A DNA stretch of 64,000 nt from Crateriforma spongiae (GCF_012290005.1 NZ_JAAXMS010000003.1:434001-498000); one strand, 5' to 3'; positions 994-14,787 are shown, counted from the stretch's first letter. Translations and numbers: made by a program. The notes: generated from the sequence alone by a model not told the origin.

Positions 994-2478
994 TTAATTC
1001 AGCGAAGGCTTGGAAGAAACACCCCGACGGCGTTTCGGCTGGGCCGACGCCGGGTGGCGATAGACGCCACCGACATCGGCGGATAAACAACGTCCGCTGG
1101 CCCATTGACGTAGCGACTCGATCGCTTCGCCTGAGGTGGCGGCAATCGGAACGATGTGCCGGGCGGCTTCGACCAACGTCAGTTGCAACAACGCCGCCAA
1201 GCGACAACAAGCCAAGATCTCCGCACCGGTCCAATCCCGGTCTTCGGGACAGGGCTGTGCGTCGTCGATGGCAAATCGCTGTCGATACAGTGTCCAGATG
1301 GCGTCCTTCTGCTCCCGGCCGGGAAGGTCAAGAAAGAACACGCCGTCGAACCGCTCGGCACGGCTGAATTCCGGCGGCAAGCGGCGAACATCGTTGGCCG
1401 TGCACACGACGAATGCATCGGATGTGTGGTCGTTCAGCCAAGTCAGAAAGGTGCCGAACATCCGTGAAGCCACGCCACCATCGTTGACACCGCCTTGGAT
1501 GCCGGCGAAGGCTTTCTCGACCTCATCGATCATCACCACACAAGGTGCCATCGCGTCGATGGTCGCCAGGGCCTGTCGGGTACGTTCTTCGGATTGTCCG
1601 ACAAGGGACCCCAACAGACTGCCGACGTCCAAGATCAACACGGGGCGACCGGTCTCGGCACCCAGTGTTTTACAAAAAGCGGACTTGCCACATCCCGGTG
1701 GCGAAAGCAGCAAGACGCCCTTGGCCGGCACTTGCCTCGGTCCCCCATTGCCGATCGCTCGACGGGTGAACGACTTCAATGCATCCAGGCCACCGAGTTG
1801 GTCGAAGCGTTCTTGTCCACGGTGCAGCGACAGAAGTCCGCCGTCCCGCAGTGTTTGGGTCTTCAGCTCCCACAACGTATCGGGCTGCAGTCGACCGTGA
1901 CGGACCAGCGAGAGTGCGAACGCGTTCTCCGCTTCCAATCGGGTCAATCCGGCGGCTGCATCGATGACGCGTTGCAAGTCATTGCCAGCGGGCATTTCAC
2001 CCGACTCGGTGGCCGTTCCGGCGGCGATCGCTTGCAACTGTTCCCGATCGGGCAATTCGTGATCGATGACAACGAACAATCGCTGCAGTTCGATCGGCAA
2101 TTGAACCAATGGGGCAAGGATCACCAGGATCGTCCGTCGCGTCCTACCTTCGGCGACCGCGCGGGCGACCGCTTGGATGATCTCGGGCGACTGAAGAAAA
2201 CGATGAAAGTTCTTCAAGATCAGCAGCGAAGCGGAATGCTCATCGGCCAACGCTGAAAGAACGTGGACGGCTGAAAGTGGGTCAGCCGCCTCGGCTTGCA
2301 GCGGTGAGTCCGAAGCCGAGCGTAGGCCTCGGTCGATGTCCCAAATCGCCAACGTCCATTGCTGGTCGCGGCACAGCGTGGACATCTCGGCAATGGCGTC
2401 GTCGTGTTCGTGACTTCGGATCCAGATGCCGGAAAAGCACGCCTGGACCCTTTCACGAACGGGGTCGGTAAGTGTCAT
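994..2478 (-). CDS. AAA ATPase of the Ycf46 type
   Basis: 494 residues. The N-terminal half (1-220) matches the non-catalytic half of Ycf46-like ATPases. The AAA module follows: Walker A PPGCGKS at 260-266, Walker B MIDEV at 316-320, a second-region stretch SRMFGTFLTWL, and RFDGVFFLDLP with the arginine-finger region. These match Ycf46, known from cyanobacteria, plastids and several other bacteria and without a settled function. Start ATG 2478 has AAGGAA 8 nt upstream. DUF2997 and DUF1257 genes lie upstream, which is also a cyanobacterial association (Ycf35 is DUF1257). Role inferred only as an ATP-driven remodeller of a partner protein, perhaps encoded in the same cluster. A hairpin terminator or attenuator sits just before it. 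Confidence 0.85.
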   Translation of the reverse strand: MTLTDPVRERVQACFSGIWIRSHEHDDAIAEMSTLCRDQQWTLAIWDIDRGLRSASDSPLQAEAADPLSAVHVLSALADEHSASLLILKNFHRFLQSPEIIQAVARAVAEGRTRRTILVILAPLVQLPIELQRLFVVIDHELPDREQLQAIAAGTATESGEMPAGNDLQRVIDAAAGLTRLEAENAFALSLVRHGRLQPDTLWELKTQTLRDGGLLSLHRGQERFDQLGGLDALKSFTRRAIGNGGPRQVPAKGVLLLSPPGCGKSAFCKTLGAETGRPVLILDVGSLLGSLVGQSEERTRQALATIDAMAPCVVMIDEVEKAFAGIQGGVNDGGVASRMFGTFLTWLNDHTSDAFVVCTANDVRRLPPEFSRAERFDGVFFLDLPGREQKDAIWTLYRQRFAIDDAQPCPEDRDWTGAEILACCRLAALLQLTLVEAARHIVPIAATSGEAIESLRQWASGRCLSADVGGVYRHPASAQPKRRRGVSSKPSLN

Positions 2479-4144: not shown

Positions 4145-4511
4145 GGAGATTAGCCGTTTGGCAAGAATGTCGGCAATGAAAGTAAGTTCGTACTAAGTGC
4201 CTCCGTATCTTAGCGTCCGCAGACGCCTCGGGGCACCCGGAGAGGCAATGGCCAAGAAGGAGTCGGCAGAGAGGCCGGGATTGATGTCGAACTTCAGGCC
4301 GACTTGCTGGCATTTGCGCTAGCGAGTCGCAGTCGTTGCGTTGTGTACGTGCGAGATCTCGGTGTGTCGAAAACTGGCAAAATTGGGGTGGCGAAAGATC
4401 AAAAAAACGACATTAGGTGCAGCAGATGCCAAGCGAATTTGGTAGGTTCGGCTGCGTGAACAGCGGGTTTTCAGCAGAAAAACCGGGGTTTGCTAAGGGA
4501 AAAGATGGTCC
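4145..4511. other. Intergenic stretch left of the attachment repeat
   Basis: 367 bp with no supported gene. I searched it for the missing 5' half of tRNA-Pro (acceptor CGGGGCG plus a D-arm) and found none. AT content seems raised around 4360-4420. Confidence 0.5.
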
Positions 4512-4557
4512 GTTCGGGACGTAGAGGTCGCTAGTTCGAATCTAGTCGCCCCGACTT
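4512..4557 (+). repeat. Left attachment repeat: 3' part of tRNA-Pro(CGG)
   Basis: 46 bp identical to 14697-14742. It reads as anticodon loop TTCGGGA (anticodon CGG, G37), anticodon stem 3' strand CGTAG, variable loop, a T-arm with 5-bp stem around TTCGAAT, and acceptor strand CGCCCCG plus A. The 5' half of the tRNA is not in front of it, and anticodon-stem pairing breaks after two base pairs, so this is not a functional tRNA. It marks the left end of the element. Confidence 0.85.
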
Positions 4558-4585
4558 TCTAAGTCGTTTAGCTTCAACGACTTAC

Positions 4586-4670
4586 GGGCCTTCCGAGACA
4601 GGCCCGAATTGGCCGGTTTGGTCCAGGCCTTTCTCTAGGCCCTCGCGGGCCTTCGGTACGGCGGGCCTAA
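4586..4670. repeat. Cluster of GGGCCT/AGGCCC motifs at the left element end
   Basis: At least five copies of GGGCCT(T/A) or its complement lie at about 4586, 4600, 4636, 4647 and 4664, the last one GGGCCTAA. The same motif clusters just inside the right end (14567-14655). Tyrosine integrases often bind short arm-type repeats inside both element ends, so these are candidate arm sites. Confidence 0.45.
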
Positions 4671-4954
4671 ATTTGTTTAGGGCTGGGCACCTCCGGCACG
4701 TGCCACTCCTCGGTATCCAAGCCGAATCGTCGTGCCGCTTCCGTCTCCTCCGACCAACCGGCCCGGATCTCCGCCGCCGCCCTCGCAATCTCCTCGGGGG
4801 GCGGGCAATAGGTCACCGAGTCAATTTCGGCTTGCGTAGGCCCCCCAGCAGCGTGCCTCGCATCGTTTCGGGGTGGACACAACGGCGGAGCCATGGGCCG
4901 TGCCGAGCGACGGGGAAACCGCCGCCCAGAGGTGACGGGTTTCGCCCGGATCAT
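4667..4954 (-). CDS. Small hypothetical protein at the left element end
   Basis: 95 residues from ATG 4954, whose A-T-G shares a base with the TGA of the upstream gene (TGATG-type coupling). The N-terminal 35 residues are Arg/Pro-rich. The C-terminal part is more typical of a folded small protein: PPPEEIARAAAEIRAGWS followed by ETEAARRFGLDTEEW, a helix with a conserved-looking W-S pair. Similar short 'EIARAAAEIRAGW' proteins occur in planctomycetes, as far as I recall. The start could instead be the internal ATG at 4894. Function unknown. Confidence 0.5.
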   Translation of the reverse strand: MIRAKPVTSGRRFPRRSARPMAPPLCPPRNDARHAAGGPTQAEIDSVTYCPPPEEIARAAAEIRAGWSEETEAARRFGLDTEEWHVPEVPSPKQI

Positions 4955-5439
4955 CACTTCCACTCCGGGATCTCGGGCAACCGGCGGTTGATCTCAACCC
5001 GTTCTTCGGCGGCACGTTGTTGGGCTTCAAGTTGAAGGCGCTCCCGGTGGCGGGCTTGTTGCCACTCGGGCAATCGCTCCTGCTTGATTATGATCATCCG
5101 GTCCAGTCGTTCAATATTCTTGGACCAAGCCTTGAGCTTCTCATAAGCCTCGTCAGGCGTCCGGTAGTACGCAGGCGAATCCGCATAGATAGCCTCAAGA
5201 CCTTGCAGCCCCCGCCGGACCTTGCGCGAATACAGCTTGTACTCTTCGATCTTACGCAAAGCGTACTCAATGAATGCCCGACTTCGCTCGTGGGGATCAT
5301 TCGGGGCCTCTTGCATTAGGCCATGTTCATGGTGGAAGACAGCCCCGTTGGCGAACAGCGTTCGGGAGGTGGTGTCGTCGTACAGTCTCGCGCCGTTGCG
5401 GGCAAAGAACTCTTCTTGTGTTTCGACTACTCGTGGCAT
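4954..5439 (-). CDS. Hypothetical protein downstream of the large terminase gene
   Basis: 161 residues, start ATG 5439 with AGGAG 9 nt upstream. The C-terminal half (about 75-160) is strongly helical and charged, with KLKAWSKNIERLDRM and long Glu/Arg/Gln runs typical of coiled coil. The N-terminus includes FFARNGARLYDDTTSRTLFANGAV. It begins 12 bp after the terminase stop in the same direction, so it is co-transcribed with the packaging genes. No capsid, portal or head-completion family is recognisable. Confidence 0.6.
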   Translation of the reverse strand: MPRVVETQEEFFARNGARLYDDTTSRTLFANGAVFHHEHGLMQEAPNDPHERSRAFIEYALRKIEEYKLYSRKVRRGLQGLEAIYADSPAYYRTPDEAYEKLKAWSKNIERLDRMIIIKQERLPEWQQARHRERLQLEAQQRAAEERVEINRRLPEIPEWK

Positions 5440-5451
5440 AACAGCATTCTC

Positions 5452-6876
5452 CTAAAACATAGAAACAGTGGGGCGAGCCTTTCGACCCGCGATATCAAAT
5501 CCGACGTACAGCGCATTAACGAACGCAGACGCCAAGTCACCGTGCCCCGTTTCGTCGCGGGGACTCACGAGGCGAAATCCAAACGAACGTTCCTCGATTC
5601 GAAGATGAACCAGCTCATGCCTTAGCACCCGGTCTTCGTAGAGCGTCACGCGACGATCGGTAAAGGCTTCGATTAACCGCGAAGCCATGTCACGGAGATT
5701 CGCACCGCTGGGCACGACTGGTAACAAGTCAACTCGCCGGAGATCGTAGGAAAGACGCTGGGCGAGTAGTTCGGCCTGCCAAGGATCGTAGGCGATGGTG
5801 TCGAGACCATAGACTTGGCAACACCGCCTTAACTCTTGCTCTACGTCCATCAGATCGACGGTCTTTCCCGGTCGCGGTTTCCATCGCTTGGTGTGAAGCA
5901 ACCGGAACCGTTTCGCATTCGGCGTATCGTTTTCACCGATGCCCAGCACAGCGACAGCACTCGCGTCACGCTTCACCCCAAGGTCAACACCGGCAACGCA
6001 CGTATAGCCCCTCAGCCGATTCCCGATCGGGAAGGCTGCGCCGTCAAACGCGGCCTCGATATCCTCGCTCGTCAGGGCATCGCCGCCGCCGGTCGACCAT
6101 TCGTTCAACCACAGCCGAGCGAAAGACACACCCGGCAACAGTCGTCGCTGTTCGTCAAGTCGATCCTCCGTCATCCAAGAGGCTTCCGGGCCGTTAAGAC
6201 GGCGGAAGATCCAAGAAGAATCGGAGCGAATTGATTCCCTCAACTTCCATTGCCACGTTTCTTGCCACCCGGCATTTGCGATCCCGAACATCAGGCAATT
6301 CCGACGCTTCGCAGCCGAGGAAATGAGCGACGCCCACAACGCTTCGGATGAATCTCCCCAGTGCGTTATCTCGTCGAACACGATCGCATCGGGCAGAATC
6401 CCGTAAGAAGACCCAACGTCCGAAGTCTCAATGGCCAGGTAAGAATCGTAGCCAGGCGAATCCGAAACGTTCGTTACTCGGGCGCGATCAACTTGCAACC
6501 ACGCTCCCAACCAAGGATTCAACCGGGTCAACGTCAGTATCGCATCCCGGAGCAACATCGCTTGATCTTTGTCGGCGGCATAGGCATAAAGCCTCAATGG
6601 CCGAGTCGCGAACGCCAGCATGTACGTCACCACTACGGCGATGTCGGTTGTTTTGCTGTGGCCGCGGGGTCTTTCGAAGAACGCCCGCATTGTTTCAGGA
6701 CGCTTGCCGCGACCTAGGCACGCCATCACGAGAGGATCAAGCAACTTGTAGTCGTCACGCTGCCACGGGTCGGCGACATCTCCGAGGCGTCGAGGCGTAC
6801 CGTCAACGTCAACAACAAGTTCATCACGAAACGCAGCGGGATTCGAGGCATATAGCCTCAGCTTGTCAACGTTCAT
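5452..6876 (-). CDS. Phage terminase large subunit
   Basis: 474 residues from ATG 6876, chosen because GGAGGA lies 8 nt upstream; the frame is open further to 6966. A Walker A-like loop RPRGHSKTT is at 69-77 and Walker B AIVFDEI at 165-171, followed by THW as in terminase ATPases. The RNase H-like nuclease half starts near VAGVDLGVKRDAS (Asp about 298), continues with IAYDPWQ and ends with DETGHGDLASAF. These order as ATP motor then headful/cos nuclease, the enzyme that pumps DNA into a procapsid. The start overlaps the small-subunit stop by 11 bp. Notably no portal or capsid gene follows. Confidence 0.85.
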   Translation of the reverse strand: MNVDKLRLYASNPAAFRDELVVDVDGTPRRLGDVADPWQRDDYKLLDPLVMACLGRGKRPETMRAFFERPRGHSKTTDIAVVVTYMLAFATRPLRLYAYAADKDQAMLLRDAILTLTRLNPWLGAWLQVDRARVTNVSDSPGYDSYLAIETSDVGSSYGILPDAIVFDEITHWGDSSEALWASLISSAAKRRNCLMFGIANAGWQETWQWKLRESIRSDSSWIFRRLNGPEASWMTEDRLDEQRRLLPGVSFARLWLNEWSTGGGDALTSEDIEAAFDGAAFPIGNRLRGYTCVAGVDLGVKRDASAVAVLGIGENDTPNAKRFRLLHTKRWKPRPGKTVDLMDVEQELRRCCQVYGLDTIAYDPWQAELLAQRLSYDLRRVDLLPVVPSGANLRDMASRLIEAFTDRRVTLYEDRVLRHELVHLRIEERSFGFRLVSPRDETGHGDLASAFVNALYVGFDIAGRKARPTVSMF

Positions 6877-7303
6877 CGCTTCGGTCCTCCGGCGTATCAG
6901 CGGGTTCATACTCGACGTCAGCGGGAAGCTTCGCATACCAATTGAGGTCTGCGGGGGCACGGTCAAGACCGATGGTCTTGGCTAGTCCTGAGAGGGAATT
7001 CATAGCCTGGACCCAACGGCCAATCACTTCATCTGTTTCAAGTTCGCCGGAGATGACCTTTTGTTCTAGGTCTTGCAGAAGGGCCTCAAGAAAAACAAAT
7101 CGCTCGATGACTGCGTTGCGAACATGGGAAATCGCTCCCTCGCCCCCCAGGTCTCGAACAATCGACTCATAGTTAGATCGCAACTGTTTGGCGACGGCGT
7201 AACGAGCGTCAAGAGTCTCAAGAAAGCCGGTTGTGAATTTAGCTGGTAGCTTGTTTGGCTTATGGCTCTTGTTCTTTCGCGTGCCTTTAGATACTCGGGG
7301 CAT
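6866..7303 (-). CDS. Phage terminase small subunit-like protein
   Basis: 145 residues: a basic N-terminus (KGTRKNKSHKPNK), a central helical region with FVFLEALLQDLEQKV, then WVQAMNSLSGLAKTIGL, which is typical of P27/terminase small-subunit-like proteins, and an acidic tail. It directly precedes and overlaps the large terminase gene. The assignment rests on position plus this general pattern. Small subunits recognise the packaging site on DNA, so this gene may decide which DNA is packaged. Confidence 0.7.
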   Translation of the reverse strand: MPRVSKGTRKNKSHKPNKLPAKFTTGFLETLDARYAVAKQLRSNYESIVRDLGGEGAISHVRNAVIERFVFLEALLQDLEQKVISGELETDEVIGRWVQAMNSLSGLAKTIGLDRAPADLNWYAKLPADVEYEPADTPEDRSDER

Positions 7304-7522
7304 CGTCGGTCGGGCCTCCTCGATAGGCGTTGGGAATACACCTAGGGAATCTAAGACCGATCGGCCTCATGCGCTACTCGCATTTACTGGCTATCTTATG
7401 GGTATTTCGGGGGTACTTTGCTAGAGGCCCTAGGCCGTGCGGTAAGGCTTTCGGGCGATCCCCCAACGCCTCGTGCTTTACGCCCGGAAAGTCGTGCGAG
7501 ACGGTGCGATAGGTGCCTTATC
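7304..7522. other. Non-coding gap between terminase and recombinase genes
   Basis: 219 bp with no supported gene. It should contain the promoter for the small terminase gene. CCTAGG is present near 7430. No clear hairpin terminator for the serine recombinase was found. Confidence 0.35.
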
Positions 7523-8155
7523 TCATGGATTCCCGGCGGGTTCAAGAATCCCGGCCTCCCGGAGCACCGAATACACGGTCGGGCGACTCACCCGGACGGC
7601 CCGAGCGACGGCGGTTATGGTTTGGCCCGATTTGTAAAACTCAACAATGGCCTTGTGTGTGTCGGCGTTGACTGTGCGGCGGACGCCCTTTTTGGAGCCG
7701 CCCCACCGCTTACCATTTGCCCTAGCTACTGCCTGCCCAGCTTTGACACGCTCGCCCCTAACTTCGGTCTCGTACTGGGCGACGGATGCTAACACGTTCG
7801 CCATGAGCCGACCTGCTGGTGTTGATAGGTCAAGGCCGTCCCTTACCGAGACAAGATTGATCTTTCTGGCATTCAAATCTTCAAAAAGTGCCGTTAATCC
7901 CGAGGCCGTTCGCCCTAGTCGATCTAATCGCCATACGACAATCCGTGAGACTTTCCCTGCCCTGGCATCACGTTCTAAACGTTCCCATTCCGGTCGGCTC
8001 ATTGACTTCCCAGACGCCTTATCCTCAAACCATTTCACATCACCATCCAGGCTCTTGATATAGGACTCTAGGTCCGGCTTTTGGGAAGCAGTGTCCTGGT
8101 TATTAGAAGAAACACGACAGTAGACCGCAGTAAACTTGCTCATCTCAGTTATCAT
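7523..8155 (-). CDS. Serine recombinase (resolvase/invertase family)
   Basis: 210 residues, the normal length of small serine recombinases. The catalytic region has YCRVSS with Ser16 as probable nucleophile, the arginine motif VVWRLDRLGRTASGL, and the typical LSTPAGRLMANVLASVAQYE before the long E helix. The C-terminus is a helix-turn-helix, with ITAVARAVRVSRPTVYSVLRE. It may resolve multimers, invert DNA or act as a second recombination system beside the tyrosine integrase. ATG 8155 is used; ATG 8143 (MSKFTAVY) is an equal alternative. It is divergent from the protease-like gene across a 353-bp intergenic region. Confidence 0.9.
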   Translation of the reverse strand: MITEMSKFTAVYCRVSSNNQDTASQKPDLESYIKSLDGDVKWFEDKASGKSMSRPEWERLERDARAGKVSRIVVWRLDRLGRTASGLTALFEDLNARKINLVSVRDGLDLSTPAGRLMANVLASVAQYETEVRGERVKAGQAVARANGKRWGGSKKGVRRTVNADTHKAIVEFYKSGQTITAVARAVRVSRPTVYSVLREAGILEPAGNP

Positions 8156-8508
8156 AGTAAGAGTCGAAACCTCATAACACGAACCGTTTCCTTATAGCGT
8201 AAAACCTATGCGCCGTAAACTACGGTTTATAGGTCGGGCTTTACGGATCAAGGCCGTCTCGGAATCTCTCTACGGCGCACTCTCCGCCTGAGGCAATGCC
8301 GTATAGCGTATATCGCACCCTTATGGGTTCGGCTCGAATCGAGGGTTGATAACTACGGCCTAGGAAGCCCGGTCTCAGTCTTATAGCCCTCAGTTTATTT
8401 ACTGGCCGAAAGAGTAGCGCAGGTATGGGGCTTGCAGTTATAAGGAAAATGTAGGGTCCCGCTTACCCTCTTTGAGTGCGTTCCACCTCTTCGTCGCGAG
8501 AGACAGAC
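8156..8508. promoter_or_regulatory. Divergent intergenic region with repeated TATAG-type motifs
   Basis: 353 bp between divergent genes. TATAGCGTA occurs twice (near 8193 and 8302), and related TTATAG/TATAAG motifs lie near 8228, 8382 and 8440. CCGTAAA (near 8212) is mirrored by TTTACGG (near 8240). This could be a control region with operators and/or a resolvase site for the neighbouring serine recombinase. Confidence 0.4.
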
Positions 8509-9342
8509 ATGTTCCCGTTTCAATCATCCTTCGACCACCAATTCGACCGATTCACCGACGCTGCCGAAAGCCTAGTCGCGAACTCCCGACCCACGCAAAT
8601 CGCCGCCAATCTTGCCGCCTCCGTCACGTTGGCAGACCTAGATGGCCGCGAGTACCTAGTTGCGCCTGTCACGATGGTCCGCGAACAAGTCCTTCATGGC
8701 TCGACTGGCCCCATGTTTTATCCCTCGTCAGTGCTTCAGAGCCGAGTTGAACGTTGGAATGGCGTGCCCCTCGTACTCAACCACCCCAAAGCCAGTCACG
8801 GCTACGTCTCCGCCCGCTCTCCCGACGTTCTCGAAGAACACAGCCTAGGGCACGTCTTCAATGCCCGTTTCGTTGGCAATGCGATCAAGGCCGAGGCGTG
8901 GTTTGATGTTCGTCGCACCCAGCGTCTAGCCCCCGATGTCTACCAGCGAGTCGCCTCCGGCCAGCCCGTCGAATTATCTACCGGCCTATTCACAAGGGCC
9001 GTTAACCGTCCTGGCAAGTTCAAAGGCCGTCCGTTTTCCCACCGACTTGTCGACTACGACGCAGACCACTTTGCAATTCTCCCCCAAGCCAAAGGAGCTT
9101 GTTCCGTGAAAGATGGATGTGGTGTTTCCGTGAATTCGTTCGTCCCCAGCGAACAACCGCTAGTCGCCCCGACGTTGAATTTCAGCGCATCGGACCGCGA
9201 CCCCCAGTTGACCAGCAACGACTCATCGGGGCCGCTCGTAGCACCCGTGTTGGACTTTTCCGACTGTCGTGTCGAGGGTCGTCCCACGATCAACCACCGA
9301 GCCGTTGAGGCGCCCTTGGTCGCACCCAAGTTGGATTTTTAG
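8509..9342 (+). CDS. DUF2213-type prohead protease-like protein with C-terminal PLVAPxLDF repeats
   Basis: 277 residues from ATG 8509; the longer frame begins with a GTG at 8476. The first 200 residues match phage DUF2213 proteins: VPLVLNHPK (His about 92), a GQPVELSTGL stretch (Ser about 157) and DYDADHFAILPQAKGAC, which supply the expected His and Ser positions. This family is found in head operons, where members process scaffold or capsid. The last 60 residues carry PLVAPTLNF, PLVAPVLDF and PLVAPKLDF at 217-225, 242-250 and 269-277, the last ending the protein. No capsid or scaffold gene is next to it, so its substrate may come from another phage. Confidence 0.65.
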   Translation: MFPFQSSFDHQFDRFTDAAESLVANSRPTQIAANLAASVTLADLDGREYLVAPVTMVREQVLHGSTGPMFYPSSVLQSRVERWNGVPLVLNHPKASHGYVSARSPDVLEEHSLGHVFNARFVGNAIKAEAWFDVRRTQRLAPDVYQRVASGQPVELSTGLFTRAVNRPGKFKGRPFSHRLVDYDADHFAILPQAKGACSVKDGCGVSVNSFVPSEQPLVAPTLNFSASDRDPQLTSNDSSGPLVAPVLDFSDCRVEGRPTINHRAVEAPLVAPKLDF

Positions 9343-9591
9343 ACGCTTTAGCGTGGAGGCTTAACCAAGTGTCCCGTAGGCGGATGCGATCCCCACCTGT
9401 AGTCAGTTTTTTAGCGGCGGTCATAGTAACCGTAAAAGCGGTTAATGGCTGCGTGGAGTCCAGAGTGTCGTTAGGGGGTGTTGAGTGCGCCGTTTCGTTG
9501 ACATGAAAGCATTTTTCCGTACAGTTATTGCATGTCGCCTGCCAGGACGTTAGGCGGGCTCGTTTAAGAAGTGCCTGTAAAGGAATTTTTC
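9343..9591. other. Short intergenic region
   Basis: 249 bp between two plus-strand genes. TTGACATGAAAGCATTT near 9498 followed by a TATTGC stretch near 9525 could be a sigma70-type promoter for the small gene at 9592. Low certainty. Confidence 0.3.
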
Positions 9592-9786
9592 ATGGCATCC
9601 CCAATTCAGGTCACACTAGTGACCGCCCTCGAAGACCTCGGATTTCAGCGTAAAGAACCTGACGCTGGTGCGCCGCTTGGTGGCCCAGCCGAGGTAGAGG
9701 TCACGGAAAAGACGCTTGAGGGCCTGAAGGGCCTGATTGGCAAGACGGTCGAAGTGGATTCCGGCGGCAAGGTATCCGTCGTCTAG
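9592..9786 (+). CDS. Small acidic hypothetical protein
   Basis: 64 residues from ATG 9592, with TAAAGGAA ending about 7 nt upstream; the frame is open to GTG 9571. The N-terminus SPIQVTLVTALEDLGF is followed by a Gly/Pro-rich linker and EKTLEGLKGLIGKTVEVDSGGKV. A strong terminator follows 30 bp after the stop. No family recognised. The good ribosome binding site and own terminator make it a real gene, perhaps a small regulator. Confidence 0.6.
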   Translation: MASPIQVTLVTALEDLGFQRKEPDAGAPLGGPAEVEVTEKTLEGLKGLIGKTVEVDSGGKVSVV

Positions 9787-9815
9787 CTGGTATCTTCTGG
9801 TATCGACCTGCGTTG

Positions 9816-9845
9816 CCGACCGCTTTCGAGCGGTCGGTTTTTCTT
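9816..9845 (+). terminator. Rho-independent terminator
   Basis: CCGACCGCT pairs with AGCGGTCGG around a TTCG tetraloop, followed directly by TTTTTCTTT. Ends transcription of the small gene at 9592-9786. Confidence 0.9.
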
Positions 9846-9984
9846 TGGGCTACATTTCACTCGATCTTAGGTGGTTGCTAGCCTCGTTCGACGCTTAGTG
9901 GGATCGACAGGCCTTTGTGCCCAATCCAAAACGGAAGGGCACCGGGGATCTTTACTATTGCCCGGTTTCTTCCCGCTTCGCCGG

Positions 9985-10203
9985 TCAGTCGTTCAATTCC
10001 GCGAGTCGTTCAAGGATCGCCCCCTCAACCTCCCGCAGTTTGAACAGATACACTCGGACTTCCTCGATGTCCTTCAATGGCCCCCCCGCGTCCATACGGT
10101 CCATCTCGTCCGTCACGTAGATTTGGCACTTGCCGATGGCGTCACGAGTGAAGTCAAGCCACATCTGCAACCAGGCCCGGCGAATACTATTCTCCGGTGT
10201 CAT
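9985..10203 (-). CDS. Small hypothetical protein coupled to the zinc-ribbon gene
   Basis: 72 residues from ATG 10203, with GGAG about 10 nt upstream; the frame begins with a TTG at 10218. It reads as mostly helical: RRAWLQMWLDFTRDAIGK, then IEEVRVYLFKLREVEGAIL. The start lies inside the last codons of the upstream zinc-ribbon gene, so both are translated from one mRNA. It may be a replication accessory protein, but only context suggests this. Confidence 0.5.
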   Translation of the reverse strand: MTPENSIRRAWLQMWLDFTRDAIGKCQIYVTDEMDRMDAGGPLKDIEEVRVYLFKLREVEGAILERLAELND

Positions 10204-10747
10204 GATCCGTCTCCACAAACGTGTCAGCGATACCTAGTTCTTCGAGCAGCCCCATTTTGAAGGCGGCTTCGCGTTGACACTGGCGGCGGAAGTGGGCACC
10301 GATTTCCGGCGGCACTAGACCGACCACTGCAAGGTTTTCGAAAAGCTCCATTGCATCCGTAACTTTCCGAACTTGGGCATCCGTTGATGCGTGGTCGCCC
10401 ACGTCCCGCCACCATCGCTTCCAGACCTCGTTCGGTGAGAGGTCCGGGTATGACCCCGCCCCGCTTTGTCCTGAAGGAAGAGATCCAGAGGTGGTTGCGT
10501 CAAAGTCCTTGCGAAATTCGGCGATCAACTGCTTTCGTTCGTCCGGGTTCAAGTCCGGTCGGAGTTTCGTAGCGAGATCCATCGCGTCACCCCACTTGTC
10601 GCAGTTCCAGCACTTAAACTTGATTGCGTAATCGCGTTTTGGTGGACGCACTTTGAGTTGCGCCTCGTTGCACCAGGGACAAACCCATTGTTTTCGGGCT
10701 GTCGGTCTTCCTATCAGCTTGGTTGCTACGTATTCGAGAAATATCAT
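10187..10747 (-). CDS. Zinc-ribbon, primase-like replication protein
   Basis: 186 residues. Near the N-terminus WVCPWCN and FKCWNCDKWGDAMDLATKL form a four-Cys zinc ribbon of the CHC2/primase type. The rest is helical and acidic with no visible TOPRIM or other catalytic domain, and is too short for a full primase. It follows the DUF3631 helicase gene on the same strand, so the pair probably starts replication of the element. An alternative is a zinc-ribbon regulatory protein. The 68-bp gap to the helicase gene contains a perfect 22-bp GC palindrome. Confidence 0.55.
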   Translation of the reverse strand: MIFLEYVATKLIGRPTARKQWVCPWCNEAQLKVRPPKRDYAIKFKCWNCDKWGDAMDLATKLRPDLNPDERKQLIAEFRKDFDATTSGSLPSGQSGAGSYPDLSPNEVWKRWWRDVGDHASTDAQVRKVTDAMELFENLAVVGLVPPEIGAHFRRQCQREAAFKMGLLEELGIADTFVETDHDTGE

Positions 10748-10792
10748 TTAATTGATCCATATAGGATGTGTTATCTAAAGAGGTCGGCTAGG

Positions 10793-10814
10793 CCGGCCGG
10801 GCCGGCCCGGCCGG
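10793..10814. repeat. Perfect 22-bp all-GC palindrome
   Basis: CCGGCCGGGCC followed by its exact reverse complement, sitting 1 bp after the helicase stop codon. No T-run follows on either strand, so it is not a standard terminator. It could be a protein-binding site, a cruciform-forming element or part of a replication origin. Confidence 0.75.
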
Positions 10815-10815
10815 G

Positions 10816-12036
10816 TTACGGAGAAGGGGTACGGGGGGCGTACCGTTCCCATGTCGAATCAAAATCGTGAGCCCAGTAGCCCCGTTTTCTGCGAGTCCGA
10901 TCCCGGCTGGATCGAATTCCGTAGGGTCGGAGCAATCGTGCGATCGCGTCTGCCGAAATTGGCCGTCCGCTTGAAAAACGCTGCCACTCTTCTTCTTCCC
11001 GAGCGACGAGTTTTCGAATTAGGTTTTTGGTAAGCAAAAACTTCCCGCCGTTCTCATCAGGCTTGACGCGGTCGAAGATTTCGCGTGCCGCAATCAGCAA
11101 CTTGACGCCCGGTGTAGAGAGTTCGGCTTGCCGGTCCTGCTCTTCCAACTCGAACACAAATCGCCGAAGTGCTGGCAACGATTCTTCGTCGTCGACCATC
11201 ACCACGGATTGGAGTGGCAACATCAACTCGGCCATTCGGTCGTTCGCGATATCGAACTCATCGGTGGTGTCATAGGCTTCCGCGACCCGCCCGGCGTGAT
11301 CCGTACACCACGCTACGATGCTCTCTCGCACCTTTTCCGCGTCCGGTTCGACCACTCGTGACCGAAACCTCGTGACCGAATCGTCGGCCGTCTTACGGGC
11401 CAAGCGAACCTCCACGCATCGGTCGGCAAGAACGCCGTCCAAGTTGCCGATGAGGGCGACGACTTTGGGCGAGTACACGCGGAACTGGACGATCTCATCA
11501 TTCCGGTCGCCACCGACCCGATGGACGGCAGCGTTCCGGTCGATCGCGGCGCAAAAGATCTCTTGAATCGCGATAGAGTTTTCGGAACCCTGACGACTTA
11601 ACGATTGCGCTTCGTCCATGATCAGTGTCGGCTTTTTCTCTTCGATCAGCCGATAGACTACGGCGGGCGACATGTTCGATGTCATCACCGCTTCCCGACT
11701 CAGCAACTCGATGAGTTGCAAGCACCGAGTCTTTCCGCATCGCTTTTCCGGACTCGTGATCGCCAGATGGGGAAAACGATCAAACGAATCAATGATGTGC
11801 GAAGCTAGTATCCAGCTCGCCATCACGATCCGAGCGTCATCCGGCATGACGATATAGGTGCCGATGAAATCAGCCACCGTCCGGACAATCGAGGCCGTCC
11901 CCCCTCGGGCAACCCGGCCGACCCGGCCTACCCGGCCTTTGGCGGTTCGCTTGGGCTTTCGTTTCCGAGTTTTCCTTTCAGGACCAGGCGGGGCGGGGTT
12001 TACCTCCGGCTGCTTCTTGGTTTTCCGTTTAACCAT
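10816..12036 (-). CDS. DUF3631-type helicase/ATPase
   Basis: 406 residues from ATG 12036, chosen because GGAGGA precedes it by 9 nt and the stop of the upstream gene overlaps here. The N-terminal 45 residues are very basic, with a GRVGRVGRVARGG repeat. The ATPase follows: Walker A SPEKRCGKTR at about 94-103, Walker B LIMDEAQ at about 138-144, then a sensor region VVALIGNLDGVLADRCVEVRL. The C-terminal part carries the DUF3631 extension with a WHTH-like LLRPYGIRSSRDR. DUF3631 proteins are phage or plasmid replicative helicase-like ATPases. This is the main replication gene of the element. Confidence 0.75.
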   Translation of the reverse strand: MVKRKTKKQPEVNPAPPGPERKTRKRKPKRTAKGRVGRVGRVARGGTASIVRTVADFIGTYIVMPDDARIVMASWILASHIIDSFDRFPHLAITSPEKRCGKTRCLQLIELLSREAVMTSNMSPAVVYRLIEEKKPTLIMDEAQSLSRQGSENSIAIQEIFCAAIDRNAAVHRVGGDRNDEIVQFRVYSPKVVALIGNLDGVLADRCVEVRLARKTADDSVTRFRSRVVEPDAEKVRESIVAWCTDHAGRVAEAYDTTDEFDIANDRMAELMLPLQSVVMVDDEESLPALRRFVFELEEQDRQAELSTPGVKLLIAAREIFDRVKPDENGGKFLLTKNLIRKLVAREEEEWQRFSSGRPISADAIARLLRPYGIRSSRDRTRRKRGYWAHDFDSTWERYAPRTPSP

Positions 12037-12223
12037 CGCGGCGGTCCTCCGTGCGTCGAAGTTCACGTTCGGTCGCATCGCGACAGATAAAGACAATCCG
12101 AATGCCGAACCGCTCGGCTAATCGACGATTGCAGGATCGTTCAAGTTTTTTGTCACCGTTCAAATGGGCGACTCGGGCCAAAGCGACAAGCCTTGACGCA
12201 TCAACGGGTAATTTGGCTTTCAT
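12029..12223 (-). CDS. Small basic protein preceding the helicase gene
   Basis: 64 residues from ATG 12223 with GGAGGTG ideally placed 7 nt upstream. The sequence is basic and helical: ASRLVALARVAHLNGDKKLERSCNRRLAERFGIRIVFI. It overlaps the helicase start by 8 bp. No helix-turn-helix could be confirmed. It may be a small DNA-binding or replication accessory protein. Confidence 0.55.
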   Translation of the reverse strand: MKAKLPVDASRLVALARVAHLNGDKKLERSCNRRLAERFGIRIVFICRDATERELRRTEDRRDG

Positions 12224-12265
12224 GAAATACACCTCCGAATTGGCGAGTACAAAGCCTTCGTAAAT

Positions 12266-12369
12266 CCGGCGGTAAGTAAGCGTCCACGCACGAAAAAAGC
12301 CGCGAAACGGCGTGTCTCGCGGCCTACGGGCGTGTTTCGGCGGTAAGTGGATCGGAACCGGCGGTAAGT
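12266..12369 (+). repeat. Three direct repeats (C)CGGCGGTAAGT
   Basis: CCGGCGGTAAGT at 12266-12277 and 12358-12369, and CGGCGGTAAGT at 12338-12348. The last two start 21 bp apart (copy to copy), about two helical turns. They lie in the gap before the replication genes. Candidate iterons or operators. Confidence 0.55.
12291..12323 (-). terminator. Rho-independent terminator after the 204-aa gene
   Basis: On the minus strand GCCGCGA (12323-12317) pairs with TCGCGGC (12305-12299), then TTTTTTCG follows. It separates the gene at 12369-12983 from the replication genes. Confidence 0.7.
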
Positions 12370-12983
12370 TACCGGCGGTCGGCTTGGTAGAGTTTCCGAG
12401 CGGCCATGATGGTTTCCGTCCAACACGGGGTCTGCTTCACGGCGGCATCCGTTACGCCAAACTTCTCACCCCACATCTTCGCGGTCCAGTGGATCCGATC
12501 GGGATGTTTTTGGATGGCTTCCGCTAGTCGTTGGTTGGTTTTGCCCTTTCCCCGTGTCGACGACTTGCCTTGCCTTCGAGCGACCGTCTCGGCTTTCGAT
12601 TTCGCCAAGGCCCGCAAAACGTCAAGAGCATCGTCGACCGATTCAATCTTGCTGTCGGCACCCTCGGGCATAGTGCTGCGCAAGTCACGGCGGATAGCAC
12701 CAACCATCAGCTCGATTCTCGGCCCGATGGCATCCTTCATGACCTTCCATGGGATACAATCGCTCCAATCGCGGACCCACACGAAGAGAGCTTCAGGCCC
12801 TTCTGGTATGTCGAAGACTTGTACCACGAAGATTTTTCGGAGATAACTCAACGTGTCCTCGTCAACGTGGTAGTACTCGCCAACCCGGTAACCTATACCA
12901 AGGCTTCCGATCCGGACGGTATGGCCATGCTCGTCTACGATCTTTCTTAATTTCCGCTTGCAGACCTTACAAAGGATCAACAT
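12369..12983 (-). CDS. Hypothetical protein with N-terminal Cys pair and C-terminal HTH-like region
   Basis: 204 residues, start ATG 12983 with GGAG 8 nt upstream. The N-terminus LILCKVCKRKLRK could be half of a zinc site. The C-terminal 60 residues follow a basic, Ser/Lys/Gly-rich linker and include RLAEAIQKHPDRIHWTAK followed by KFGVTDAAVKQTPCW, which resembles a winged helix. This would suit a transcriptional or copy-number regulator. It lies between the integrase and the replication genes, with direct repeats right behind its stop that could be its target. Confidence 0.5.
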   Translation of the reverse strand: MLILCKVCKRKLRKIVDEHGHTVRIGSLGIGYRVGEYYHVDEDTLSYLRKIFVVQVFDIPEGPEALFVWVRDWSDCIPWKVMKDAIGPRIELMVGAIRRDLRSTMPEGADSKIESVDDALDVLRALAKSKAETVARRQGKSSTRGKGKTNQRLAEAIQKHPDRIHWTAKMWGEKFGVTDAAVKQTPCWTETIMAARKLYQADRR

Positions 12984-13153
12984 CCTTCGTTCTCCAGTAA
13001 ACGTTCCAGGGTAAAAGCGGCGGAGGGCAACCGGCCTGGATATCCGGCGTTTGGGAGCGACCCTAGCCCTCGCCGTAGCTATCCCAATTTTACCCGAAGG
13101 GTGCGTGGACTACCGATCTCCGCCCAGTAAATAGCGTTTAGAGAGTCTATAGA

Positions 13154-14554
13154 CTATCCGTCGATCGCCGCCGCCAACTCAAGACCCAACCACTCAACGG
13201 CGGCATCGAATTGGTCTTGAGGATAGTTGGCGTAGTGCTTCGACTTCATCGAGGCAGCGGCGTGTCCCAGGAAGAGATCACCGAATTGCGGATACTTCGT
13301 TTCCAGCCGAGTTGAAGACGTTTTACGCAACAACTTCATCGGTTTGTCAATCGGCGTTCCGTCTTCGGCCAACTTAGTCCGAAGGCGTTTCCATACCGAG
13401 TCAATGCTGTTTACGTCGGATCGATCGTCCCACAAGGGGTTGCCATTCTCATTCGTCAAGGCCAGCGAATCGTGGCCTGAGCGAAACTTCTTCAAAAGCC
13501 GAAACGTTTCTTTCCACAGCGGGTAGTTCACGGTCGGTATAGCATCGCCGTGCTTTGCCGTTTTAGATCGTTTGCGAGCGATGCGTCCCTTTTTCCAGTC
13601 CACCTCATCGTGGCGAAGCTTGCCGATATCAACTTGCGTCATACCGCAATTCAAACAGAGCAACATAAACAACCTGGTCCGATCGTTTGCTCCTTTGTAC
13701 AGCGTCTGTAGTTCGAGTTCGTCGAATACTTGGATCCTTCCGGCTGATGCCGTAATCGACAGCCTATTGGGGGAATCAAGGATGGCAGGCCGTTCTATCA
13801 AGCTTTCCGAAACGGCCCATCGGACGAATTGAACCGCAACGGCCAACTTGTCCTTTGCCGTCTTGGCACTCAACGTGTCGCTGGCAACTTGGTCAAGCAG
13901 TTCGATGCGATAGTTGGTCAATGCTCCATTCGTCAACTCGGACGGCTTCTTGTTGGCACCGACGAACGAGACGAACTGATCAACCTTGATCTTTAGTTGC
14001 TTGTAGCGGCCGAATGACAACTGGCCCGCATCTGCCTCGGCTTTCTTCTCTTTCAAAAACGTCCGGGCAATCGCCCCGAGCGTACCAGAGGCCGTAGGTT
14101 GGGGCTTGGTGGCCCATGGCGGGTCGCTTCGATCGAGGACCGCTTTTTCTGGAAAGTAGCACTCTAGCAAACCACGCGGATCAGCTTCGATTTCCTGAAG
14201 GCTCAACGGGCACTTAACGCCACGGTCGCGGAGAAGTTTTGCGGCGATCTGGTTGGCCCGGACGTACTTCCAATCACGCCGGTTATCGAAGGAGTCCTGC
14301 TTTTCGAGGTCAGCCAAGATTCGGTCGGCGTTCTCGATCAAGAGGTTCCACGCCCTTTGGCTGGGGTCGTTAGCGGCCTCCGCTTCATCGACCTTTGCTT
14401 TCCATTCTTCAAACTCGGCCAGCACCCGCTGGTAGCTTTCCTCTCTAGACTCGTCCGGTCGCTTGTTGCGCTGGAAATACTTGCCTTTGTAGAGCTTTCG
14501 CCATCGTCCGCCTTGGTCGTGCGGACGCCAGTTCAATATCCGTTTCGTCGCCAT
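13154..14554 (-). CDS. int: Tyrosine recombinase (site-specific integrase) with unusual catalytic residues
   Basis: 466 residues, start ATG 14554 with GAGG 7 nt upstream. The N-terminal 150 residues are helical and charged, then a core-binding (SAM-like) domain at about 155-255 and the catalytic domain at 275-455. Visible catalytic residues are Arg410 (LLRKTSST), His431 (LGH) and Tyr441 (KHYANY). The first arginine is replaced: LNCGMTQVDIGKL has Thr306 where most members have Arg, and the His of HxxR is Lys407. The gene is 142 bp from the right attachment repeat, the usual place for the integrase of a tRNA-inserting element. Planctomycete integrases may share these substitutions, so it is not necessarily inactive. 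Confidence 0.85.
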   Translation of the reverse strand: MATKRILNWRPHDQGGRWRKLYKGKYFQRNKRPDESREESYQRVLAEFEEWKAKVDEAEAANDPSQRAWNLLIENADRILADLEKQDSFDNRRDWKYVRANQIAAKLLRDRGVKCPLSLQEIEADPRGLLECYFPEKAVLDRSDPPWATKPQPTASGTLGAIARTFLKEKKAEADAGQLSFGRYKQLKIKVDQFVSFVGANKKPSELTNGALTNYRIELLDQVASDTLSAKTAKDKLAVAVQFVRWAVSESLIERPAILDSPNRLSITASAGRIQVFDELELQTLYKGANDRTRLFMLLCLNCGMTQVDIGKLRHDEVDWKKGRIARKRSKTAKHGDAIPTVNYPLWKETFRLLKKFRSGHDSLALTNENGNPLWDDRSDVNSIDSVWKRLRTKLAEDGTPIDKPMKLLRKTSSTRLETKYPQFGDLFLGHAAASMKSKHYANYPQDQFDAAVEWLGLELAAAIDG

Positions 14555-14566
14555 CGTCTTACCTCA

Positions 14567-14655
14567 GGGCCTAAAGGTGCGTCCCCTAAGGATATCCGGC
14601 CTAGGCCCGCGCAGGTAGGCCCGATTCGGGCCTTAAATCGGAGAAACGGGCCTAG
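14567..14655. repeat. Cluster of GGGCCTA-type motifs at the right element end
   Basis: GGGCCTAA at 14567-14574, GGCCTAGGCCC at 14598-14608 (itself palindromic), TAGGCCCG at 14616-14623, GGGCCTTAA at 14628-14636 and GGGCCTAG at 14648-14655. The same motif clusters inside the left end, so these are likely integrase arm sites or an operator for the int promoter, which must be here. Confidence 0.5.
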
Positions 14656-14696
14656 AGAATTGCGTTTCCTTTATAAAGAAAAGTGCCAAACGTGTA

Positions 14697-14742
14697 CGTT
14701 CGGGACGTAGAGGTCGCTAGTTCGAATCTAGTCGCCCCGACT
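14697..14742 (+). repeat. Right attachment repeat: 3' part of tRNA-Pro(CGG)
   Basis: Exact copy of 4512-4557. The anticodon stem can form four of five pairs here, but no D-arm or acceptor 5' strand precedes it, so it is not an intact tRNA. It is followed after 7 bp by a strong terminator, as expected of the original tRNA 3' flank. Confidence 0.85.
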
Positions 14743-14748
14743 CATTCA

Positions 14749-14787
14749 AAACCCTCTGAAGCCAAGTGTTTCAGAGGGTTTTTTTGT
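14749..14787 (+). terminator. Terminator behind the tRNA-Pro fragment
   Basis: AACCCTCTGAA (14750-14760) pairs with TTCAGAGGGTT (14770-14780), followed by TTTTTT. Probably the original terminator of the tRNA-Pro gene, which places the undisturbed chromosome to the right. Confidence 0.85.

Follow-up and report, generated by a model that had tools for sequence, protein, structure and literature searches.

Positions 4508–14742 of the 64,000-nt stretch of Crateriforma spongiae analysed here (NZ_JAAXMS010000003.1:434001-498000, the window) are occupied by a small integrated element that we regard, with a probability of about 0.78, as a member of a new helper-dependent family of phage satellites, which encodes its own terminase and protease and should dock on helper capsids by mimicking the tail of the phage scaffold protein. 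The element is bounded and integrated, its integrase, replication and packaging genes are intact, nine relatives lacking virion genes were found, and the origin of the packaging module can be traced to phages carrying a DUF2213 gene; its packaging, the identity of the helper and the docking role of the motif are what we infer beyond this.

An earlier reading of the DNA made from the sequence alone (the sequence-only reading) had placed a 10.2-kb element at 4512–14742 between tRNA-Pro repeats. The size, the repeats and the right edge hold, but the left edge is at 4508. The ends are 49-nt direct repeats, identical in 48 of 49 positions (98%) and spaced by 10,186 bp start to start, and they correspond to the 3' 46–48 nt of tRNA-Pro(CGG) and are thus tRNA fragments. 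No complete tRNA was found in the window, and the intact tRNA-Pro(CGG) gene is located about 47 kb to the left (upstream) of the element, at G000:C3:391306-391380 in the source genome. In another genome of the same genus (G011) tRNA-Pro(CGG) is directly followed by a terminator that is identical to the one in the window over 90 of 90 bp, and the region up to the end of the tRNA is 95% identical between the two genomes; by this comparison the junction in G011 is the empty insertion site. A second tRNA fragment in G011 was rejected as the empty site, the flanks having no match to the window, and the tRNA itself is the true site.

Genes were identified by scanning the window proteins against the PHROG and Pfam libraries (Table 1). 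From the right end the minus strand encodes the tyrosine integrase, a 204-aa protein, the DUF3631 helicase, the zinc-ribbon protein and a 77-aa open reading frame (ORF), the plus-strand block in the middle contains the DUF2213 gene followed by a 71-aa ORF, and the minus-strand block at the left contains the small serine recombinase, the TerS-like protein, TerL and p161. The integrase, serine recombinase, DUF3631, TerL and DUF2213 genes named in the sequence-only reading were all confirmed by the libraries, and the zinc-ribbon protein by a relative in element L073 and by its similarity to the zinc finger of the L029 primase. TerS stands by its position and conservation, but not by a library match, since PHROG and Pfam gave none; the first scan likewise gave no name to p161 or to the 204-, 77- and 71-aa proteins, and the PF09979 match of the DUF2213 protein falls just under the Pfam cut-off. 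The reading frames are unbroken, as had been claimed, and the catalytic residues of TerL and the protease are present. TerL retains a Walker A-like RGHSKT, a Walker B DE and three nuclease aspartates, the Walker and nuclease residues being invariant, and it is 52% identical to TerL of L062/L079 and 45% to that of L073. An AlphaFold model of p161 shows a small beta domain and long helices, with no significant match in a fold search of BFVD. We rejected the idea that the serine recombinase inverts the plus-strand block: no notable inverted repeats flank the block, and since DUF2213 is on the opposite strand in L062 too, the orientation looks stable.

Table 1. Features of the element and its insertion site, with positions counted in the window
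Feature	Position	Strand	Evidence or remarks
Left attachment repeat (3' half of tRNA-Pro CGG)	4508..4556	+	Repeat comparison and match to intact tRNA
p161, small conserved protein	4954..5439	-	Directly after TerL; homologues after TerL in 10/10 elements
TerL, terminase large subunit (type A)	5452..6966	-	phrog_9, 1.4e-32
TerS-like protein	6866..7303	-	Position before TerL and conservation in relatives
Small serine recombinase (resolvase/invertase type)	7523..8155	-	PF00239, 1.2e-38; phrog_125
DUF2213 predicted capsid-assembly protease with three C-terminal scaffold-tail motifs	8509..9342	+	phrog_760, 3.7e-15
Motif copy 1, PLVAPTLNF	9157..9183	+	In DUF2213
Motif copy 2, PLVAPVLDF	9232..9258	+	In DUF2213
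Motif copy 3, PLVAPKLDF	9313..9339	+	Last residues of DUF2213 protein
71-aa ORF, unknown, may not be a gene	9571..9786	+	No family
77-aa ORF, unknown	9985..10218	-	No PHROG/Pfam name
Zinc-ribbon protein, primase (CHC2-like) type	10187..10747	-	Relative adjoins DUF3631 in L073
DUF3631 helicase-like replication protein	10816..12096	-	PF12307, 6.3e-22; 48% in L073
204-aa protein, unknown	12369..12983	-	No PHROG/Pfam name
Tyrosine integrase	13154..14554	-	phrog_1, 6.2e-19; 35% to L062 and 30% to L058 integrases
Right attachment repeat	14694..14742	+	Identical with tRNA 3' end in G011
Displaced host tRNA terminator	14750..14785	+	Adjoins tRNA directly in empty site of G011

Relatives were sought with TerL, with DUF2213 and with a DUF2213 alignment, and nine further elements from the same phylum were found with a TerS-type gene, TerL, p161 and DUF2213, giving a total of ten. 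L058, from the same genus, is inserted at tRNA-Pro(GGG), L062 (= L079, TBK1r) at tRNA-Val, and L073, from a Planctomycetota metagenome-assembled genome, at tRNA-Lys. L059 and L061 (= L078, the latter labelled Rhodopirellula baltica) are located inside comM and have a large serine integrase. L060 adjoins a tRNA cluster, and its ends were not resolved, nor were those of L069 (= L296, Pirellulales) and of L295 and L299 from other families of the order. The insertion sites are thus unrelated (tRNAs and comM), and so are the integrases across the family. Repeat to repeat the four tRNA-bounded elements measure 10,186, 10,430, 10,328 and 10,604 bp (mean 10,387, standard deviation 176 bp), and the comM elements about 10.3 and 11.4 kb as judged from the comM fragments. 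TerL is of two types, one in the window, L062 and L073 and the other in the rest, with 19–21% identity between types, and p161 and DUF2213 are constant across both; the protein at the TerS position in L073 is of another type. A small serine recombinase precedes TerS in eight of the ten (the window, L058, L059, L060, L061, L069, L295 and L299), and L062 has a small tyrosine recombinase in this slot. The DUF2213 phage contig L136 encodes a related enzyme (1826-2428, 51% identity to that of L062) upstream of its TerL gene, as if a resolvase belongs to the packaging module of DUF2213 phages. L297 and L298 were also considered as satellite candidates, but they carry a capsid gene and are phages.

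The lack of capsid, portal and tail genes in the sequence-only reading was borne out. None of these families was found in the window by the library scans, no portal or capsid gene was found in the nine relatives, and a BLAST comparison of the elements with portal, capsid, head-morphogenesis and tape-measure sequences was likewise negative. The libraries were also run on 60 ORFs of eight elements, including the one in the window and leaving out the recombinases, TerL and DUF2213, and no head, tail or lysis family was found, a structural protein too diverged for the libraries being possible. The families matched in that scan were of the methyltransferase, nuclease, TIR, DUF6082 and excisionase kinds, and PADLOC found TIR-TM (1e-65), methyltransferases and others on the family members. 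Several members thus bear defence-like cargo, which probably defends the host. The sequence-only reading had suggested a planctomycete phage satellite and a search for the same gene set in other genomes; the capsid-less module does recur, with a near-constant size where the ends are defined, and supports the suggestion, packaging by a helper being the inferred part.

The module can be compared with 80 IMG/VR contigs containing a DUF2213 relative. In their best segments the phage DUF2213 proteins are 33–48% identical to that of the window and up to 52% to other satellite copies, and wherever the contig is long enough the gene is located between the portal/gpF-like genes and an HK97-type capsid gene. 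In six of the phages a hidden Markov model detected a p161 homologue upstream of the portal gene, in L104 directly between TerL and portal, and the order in L104 is TerS-like, TerL, p161, portal, head morphogenesis (gpF-like), DUF2213, scaffold and capsid. The head-operon order, protease domain, C-terminal motif and p161 are thus common to phages and element, whereas portal, gpF-like protein, scaffold body and capsid are present in the phages only. The satellite module is a collinear excerpt of the DUF2213-phage head operon, from which the genes for portal, head morphogenesis and capsid and the body of the scaffold are missing.

The DUF2213 protein is a predicted prohead protease. His92 and Ser157 are invariant in 53 sequences, and the AlphaFold model has a pLDDT of about 97 for residues 41–205, with disordered tails. 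The best solved fold match is T4 gp21 (5jbl; Foldseek E 1.9e-3, probability 1.0, TM-score 0.55 normalised on the target), followed by the herpesvirus assemblins. With these it has in common the fold of the protease domain and the conserved His and Ser, but the identity in the structural alignment is only 12%, and the scaffold part is lost in the element. By sequence profile the sole significant solved relative is gp24 of Pseudomonas phage Pa193 (E 1.1e-3), a weak match spanning 54 residues. This protein is a putative scaffold of which residues 286–326 are seen bound to the capsid interior (PMC11042391), and the match supports a protease or scaffold role for the DUF2213 family.

Most phage DUF2213 proteins are 300–1,350 aa long, the protease being followed by a long C-terminal part, and their last residues often form a motif, for example DDVLPLPTMSY, EEPLVAPTFNF or DDLLIPPTINF. 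Its strict form occurs within the last 30 residues of 17 of 62 non-redundant phage tails, where shuffling predicts 0.28, and in none of 520 internal windows. In L096, L104, L110 and L119 the motif is missing from the protease and is found instead at the end of a separate ORF that lies between the protease and capsid genes, and for this reason it can be assigned to the C-terminal end of the scaffold; capsid proteins lack it except for one chance-like match. The satellites have lost the scaffold body but kept the motif, often repeated, either fused directly to the protease or carried by a very small protein of its own. Two or more copies are present in L059 and L063, and L061, L069 and L295 have the motif in a small ORF that separates p161 from DUF2213, those of L069 (51 aa) and L295 (68 aa) containing little besides it and having a YV(C/Q)NV start in common. 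A profile trained on phage tails alone finds the motif in 10 of 11 satellite sequences (p<0.025 each, corrected for two candidates; combined 7e-16), although visual inspection had first drawn attention to the motif in both sets, and the mini-ORFs of L069 and L295 were deliberately sought. A 41-residue alignment of a helix-turn-helix protein of L033 to the DUF2213 tail was dropped as a chance alignment.

If the element is such a satellite, its helper should be a DUF2213-type phage, and because no other DUF2213 gene is present in the source genome it would arrive from outside. Upon infection the element would be excised by its integrase and replicated by the DUF3631 helicase and the primase-like protein, and TerS and TerL, with p161, would pack its DNA via the helper portal into helper procapsids. 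The motif-bearing DUF2213 protein would dock at the site of the helper scaffold, most likely on the capsid protein, and thereby bring the protease into the shell, outcompete the scaffold or change the size of the shell. The precedent is CpmB of SaPI1, a competitor for the capsid protein whose C-terminal RIIK motif is also present in the helper scaffold (PMC5644958). Heads might be resized to about 10 kb, or multimers might be packaged by the headful and later reduced; the small resolvase probably cuts multimers down to a single integrated copy. The constant size favours resizing and the resolvase favours multimer packaging. A more far-reaching version, to which we give slightly less than even odds, is that the family keeps only the transient machinery of head assembly (TerS, TerL, p161, protease and scaffold tail peptide), discards every building block of the virion, and captures helper shells by a repeated or stand-alone docking motif, including the mini-proteins that are little more than the motif.

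Several results weigh against the satellite interpretation or the docking role. A TerS profile search of IMG/VR gave no satellite, and TerL profile searches of viral contigs found phages or other contigs only and no satellite copy. The source genome, with its prophage content probed through DUF2213 and TerL searches only, gave no second DUF2213 gene in the DUF2213 searches and hence no helper. The motif was not found in L299 by the phage-tail profile and is weak in L058, L062 and L073, most of the 62 phage tails do not have its strict form, and the cultured relative phage MaInes has no clear C-terminal motif. The visible capsid contact of Pa193 is also not at the C-terminus.

Among the alternatives, the one that survives best is itself a satellite, and its probability overlaps with that given above: DUF2213 with its motif would be an interference factor that cleaves or blocks the scaffold or the capsid assembly of the helper, with multimers packaged in full-size heads and resolved to monomers. 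The dedicated resolvase before TerS in most members, the L136 recombinase related to that of L062 and the missing scaffold body speak for it, and PICMIs do package concatemers in full-size heads (PMC10803314), but a near-constant 10.2–10.6 kb fits a size limit as well; we consider it a minority option, at about one chance in three. Another proposal concerns the motif only and leaves the satellite interpretation unaffected, namely that it is a recognition or self-cleavage site of the protease. The motif is in disordered tails near the protease, and the model has a short strand at the last copy. Prohead-type proteases usually trim capsid proteins, but these do not have the motif, and being at the extreme C-terminus it leaves little to cut, so that we consider this role unlikely, if still worth considering.

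A decayed prophage that has lost its portal, capsid and tail genes, with the packaging genes left over, is improbable. The module is derived from a phage head operon, and some relatives of TerL have capsid and portal genes next to them, which in the sequence-only reading would have spoken for a deleted prophage; these are however found in other elements or phages. The same residual set is present in ten elements with intact frames, intact catalytic residues and near-constant size, and decay is unlikely to spare the same four genes repeatedly or to multiply a scaffold motif. Because the module without portal and capsid recurs with two TerL types, different integrases and different, unrelated targets, it is not a one-off deletion. 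Least probable of all, if by little, is that terminase and protease were co-opted, for example in an anti-phage defence island that sabotages packaging without transfer of the element, for which the defence-like cargo and the lack of a packaged copy among the viral contigs searched could be cited, but mobility is evident from the integrase, the attachment sites, the replication genes and the several independent sites of insertion, and a TerS accompanied by a TerL whose ATPase and nuclease residues are intact speaks for DNA packaging.

Satellite families have been published from enterobacteria, staphylococci, vibrios, streptomycetes and marine picoplankton, and our literature search found none described in planctomycetes. 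By published criteria the elements are best called a new family, set apart from cfPICI, PICMI and PICI. The cfPICIs are likewise integrative with their own TerS, TerL and head protease, but they encode capsid, portal and head-tail connectors (PMC10690885), which were found in none of the ten elements. PICIs and SaPIs likewise have integrase and replication genes and no structural or lysis genes, but the element adds TerL and a protease, its scaffold motif is fused to the protease and often repeated, and its TerS is not recognised by the libraries. PICIs are about 12–15 kb (PMC6092414), against 10.19–10.60 kb for the tRNA-bounded elements, and no PICI-type master regulator was recognised in the window, excisionase and helix-turn-helix families being matched by single ORFs only. 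PICMIs are small satellites, likewise with no annotated capsid-remodelling genes; PICMI115 is 6.1 kb with no packaging-redirecting gene found, and PICMIs are located at fis (PMC10803314). Our family differs in its full terminase and its tRNA or comM sites, and instead of fis, AlpA and a DUF3987/DUF5906 primase the window element has tRNA-Pro and DUF3631. The P4-like Psu, Sid, Delta and alpha replicase had no PHROG or Pfam match, no dedicated models being run. A satellite that combines a complete terminase and a capsid protease with the absence of any shell gene would bridge PICIs, which have at most TerS, and cfPICIs, which have the whole head. With the scaffold-tail motif the CpmB/RIIK strategy would recur in an unrelated protein; the motif is a short and directly testable peptide, and the near-constant size makes capsid resizing versus concatemer packaging testable.

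Some minor observations concern the relatives. TerL-A relatives with capsid, portal and head-morphogenesis genes are found in compact planctomycete elements or contigs, L033 (5139-17498), L031, L029, L245 and L246, that may be capsid-forming satellites or small prophages; L033 adjoins tRNA-Met and has a short tape-measure-like gene. The magnesium-chelatase-like competence gene comM is a target of large serine integrases in several planctomycetes (L059 5273-16796, L061 6726-19813, and L082), apparently with two tandem insertions in L059. A predicted membrane protein is common to the cargo slots of L058 (15743-16594) and L062 (11177-12130); it possibly corresponds to the two DUF6082 matches and is perhaps an abortive-infection gene.

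A tyrosine integrase gene (391524-392714, phrog_1 7.6e-32) follows the intact tRNA-Pro(CGG), and therefore at least two insertions are in tandem at this site, in the order tRNA, element A (about 47 kb), repeat, 10-kb element, repeat and terminator. The larger insertion (G000:C3:391381-438507, ending at window position 4507) fills the gap between tRNA and element, opens with this integrase of its own and has a further integrase-family gene at 401505-402845. It contains many short ORFs with repeated spacers and looks like an integron cassette array, and an AAA ATPase (window 994-2478, phrog_8638, 5.7e-85) is encoded in it just left of the element. In G011 more tRNA-Pro 3' fragments are located downstream of elements (C1:2755898-2760441 and 1473629-1473672), pointing to tandem arrays at both tRNA-Pro genes.

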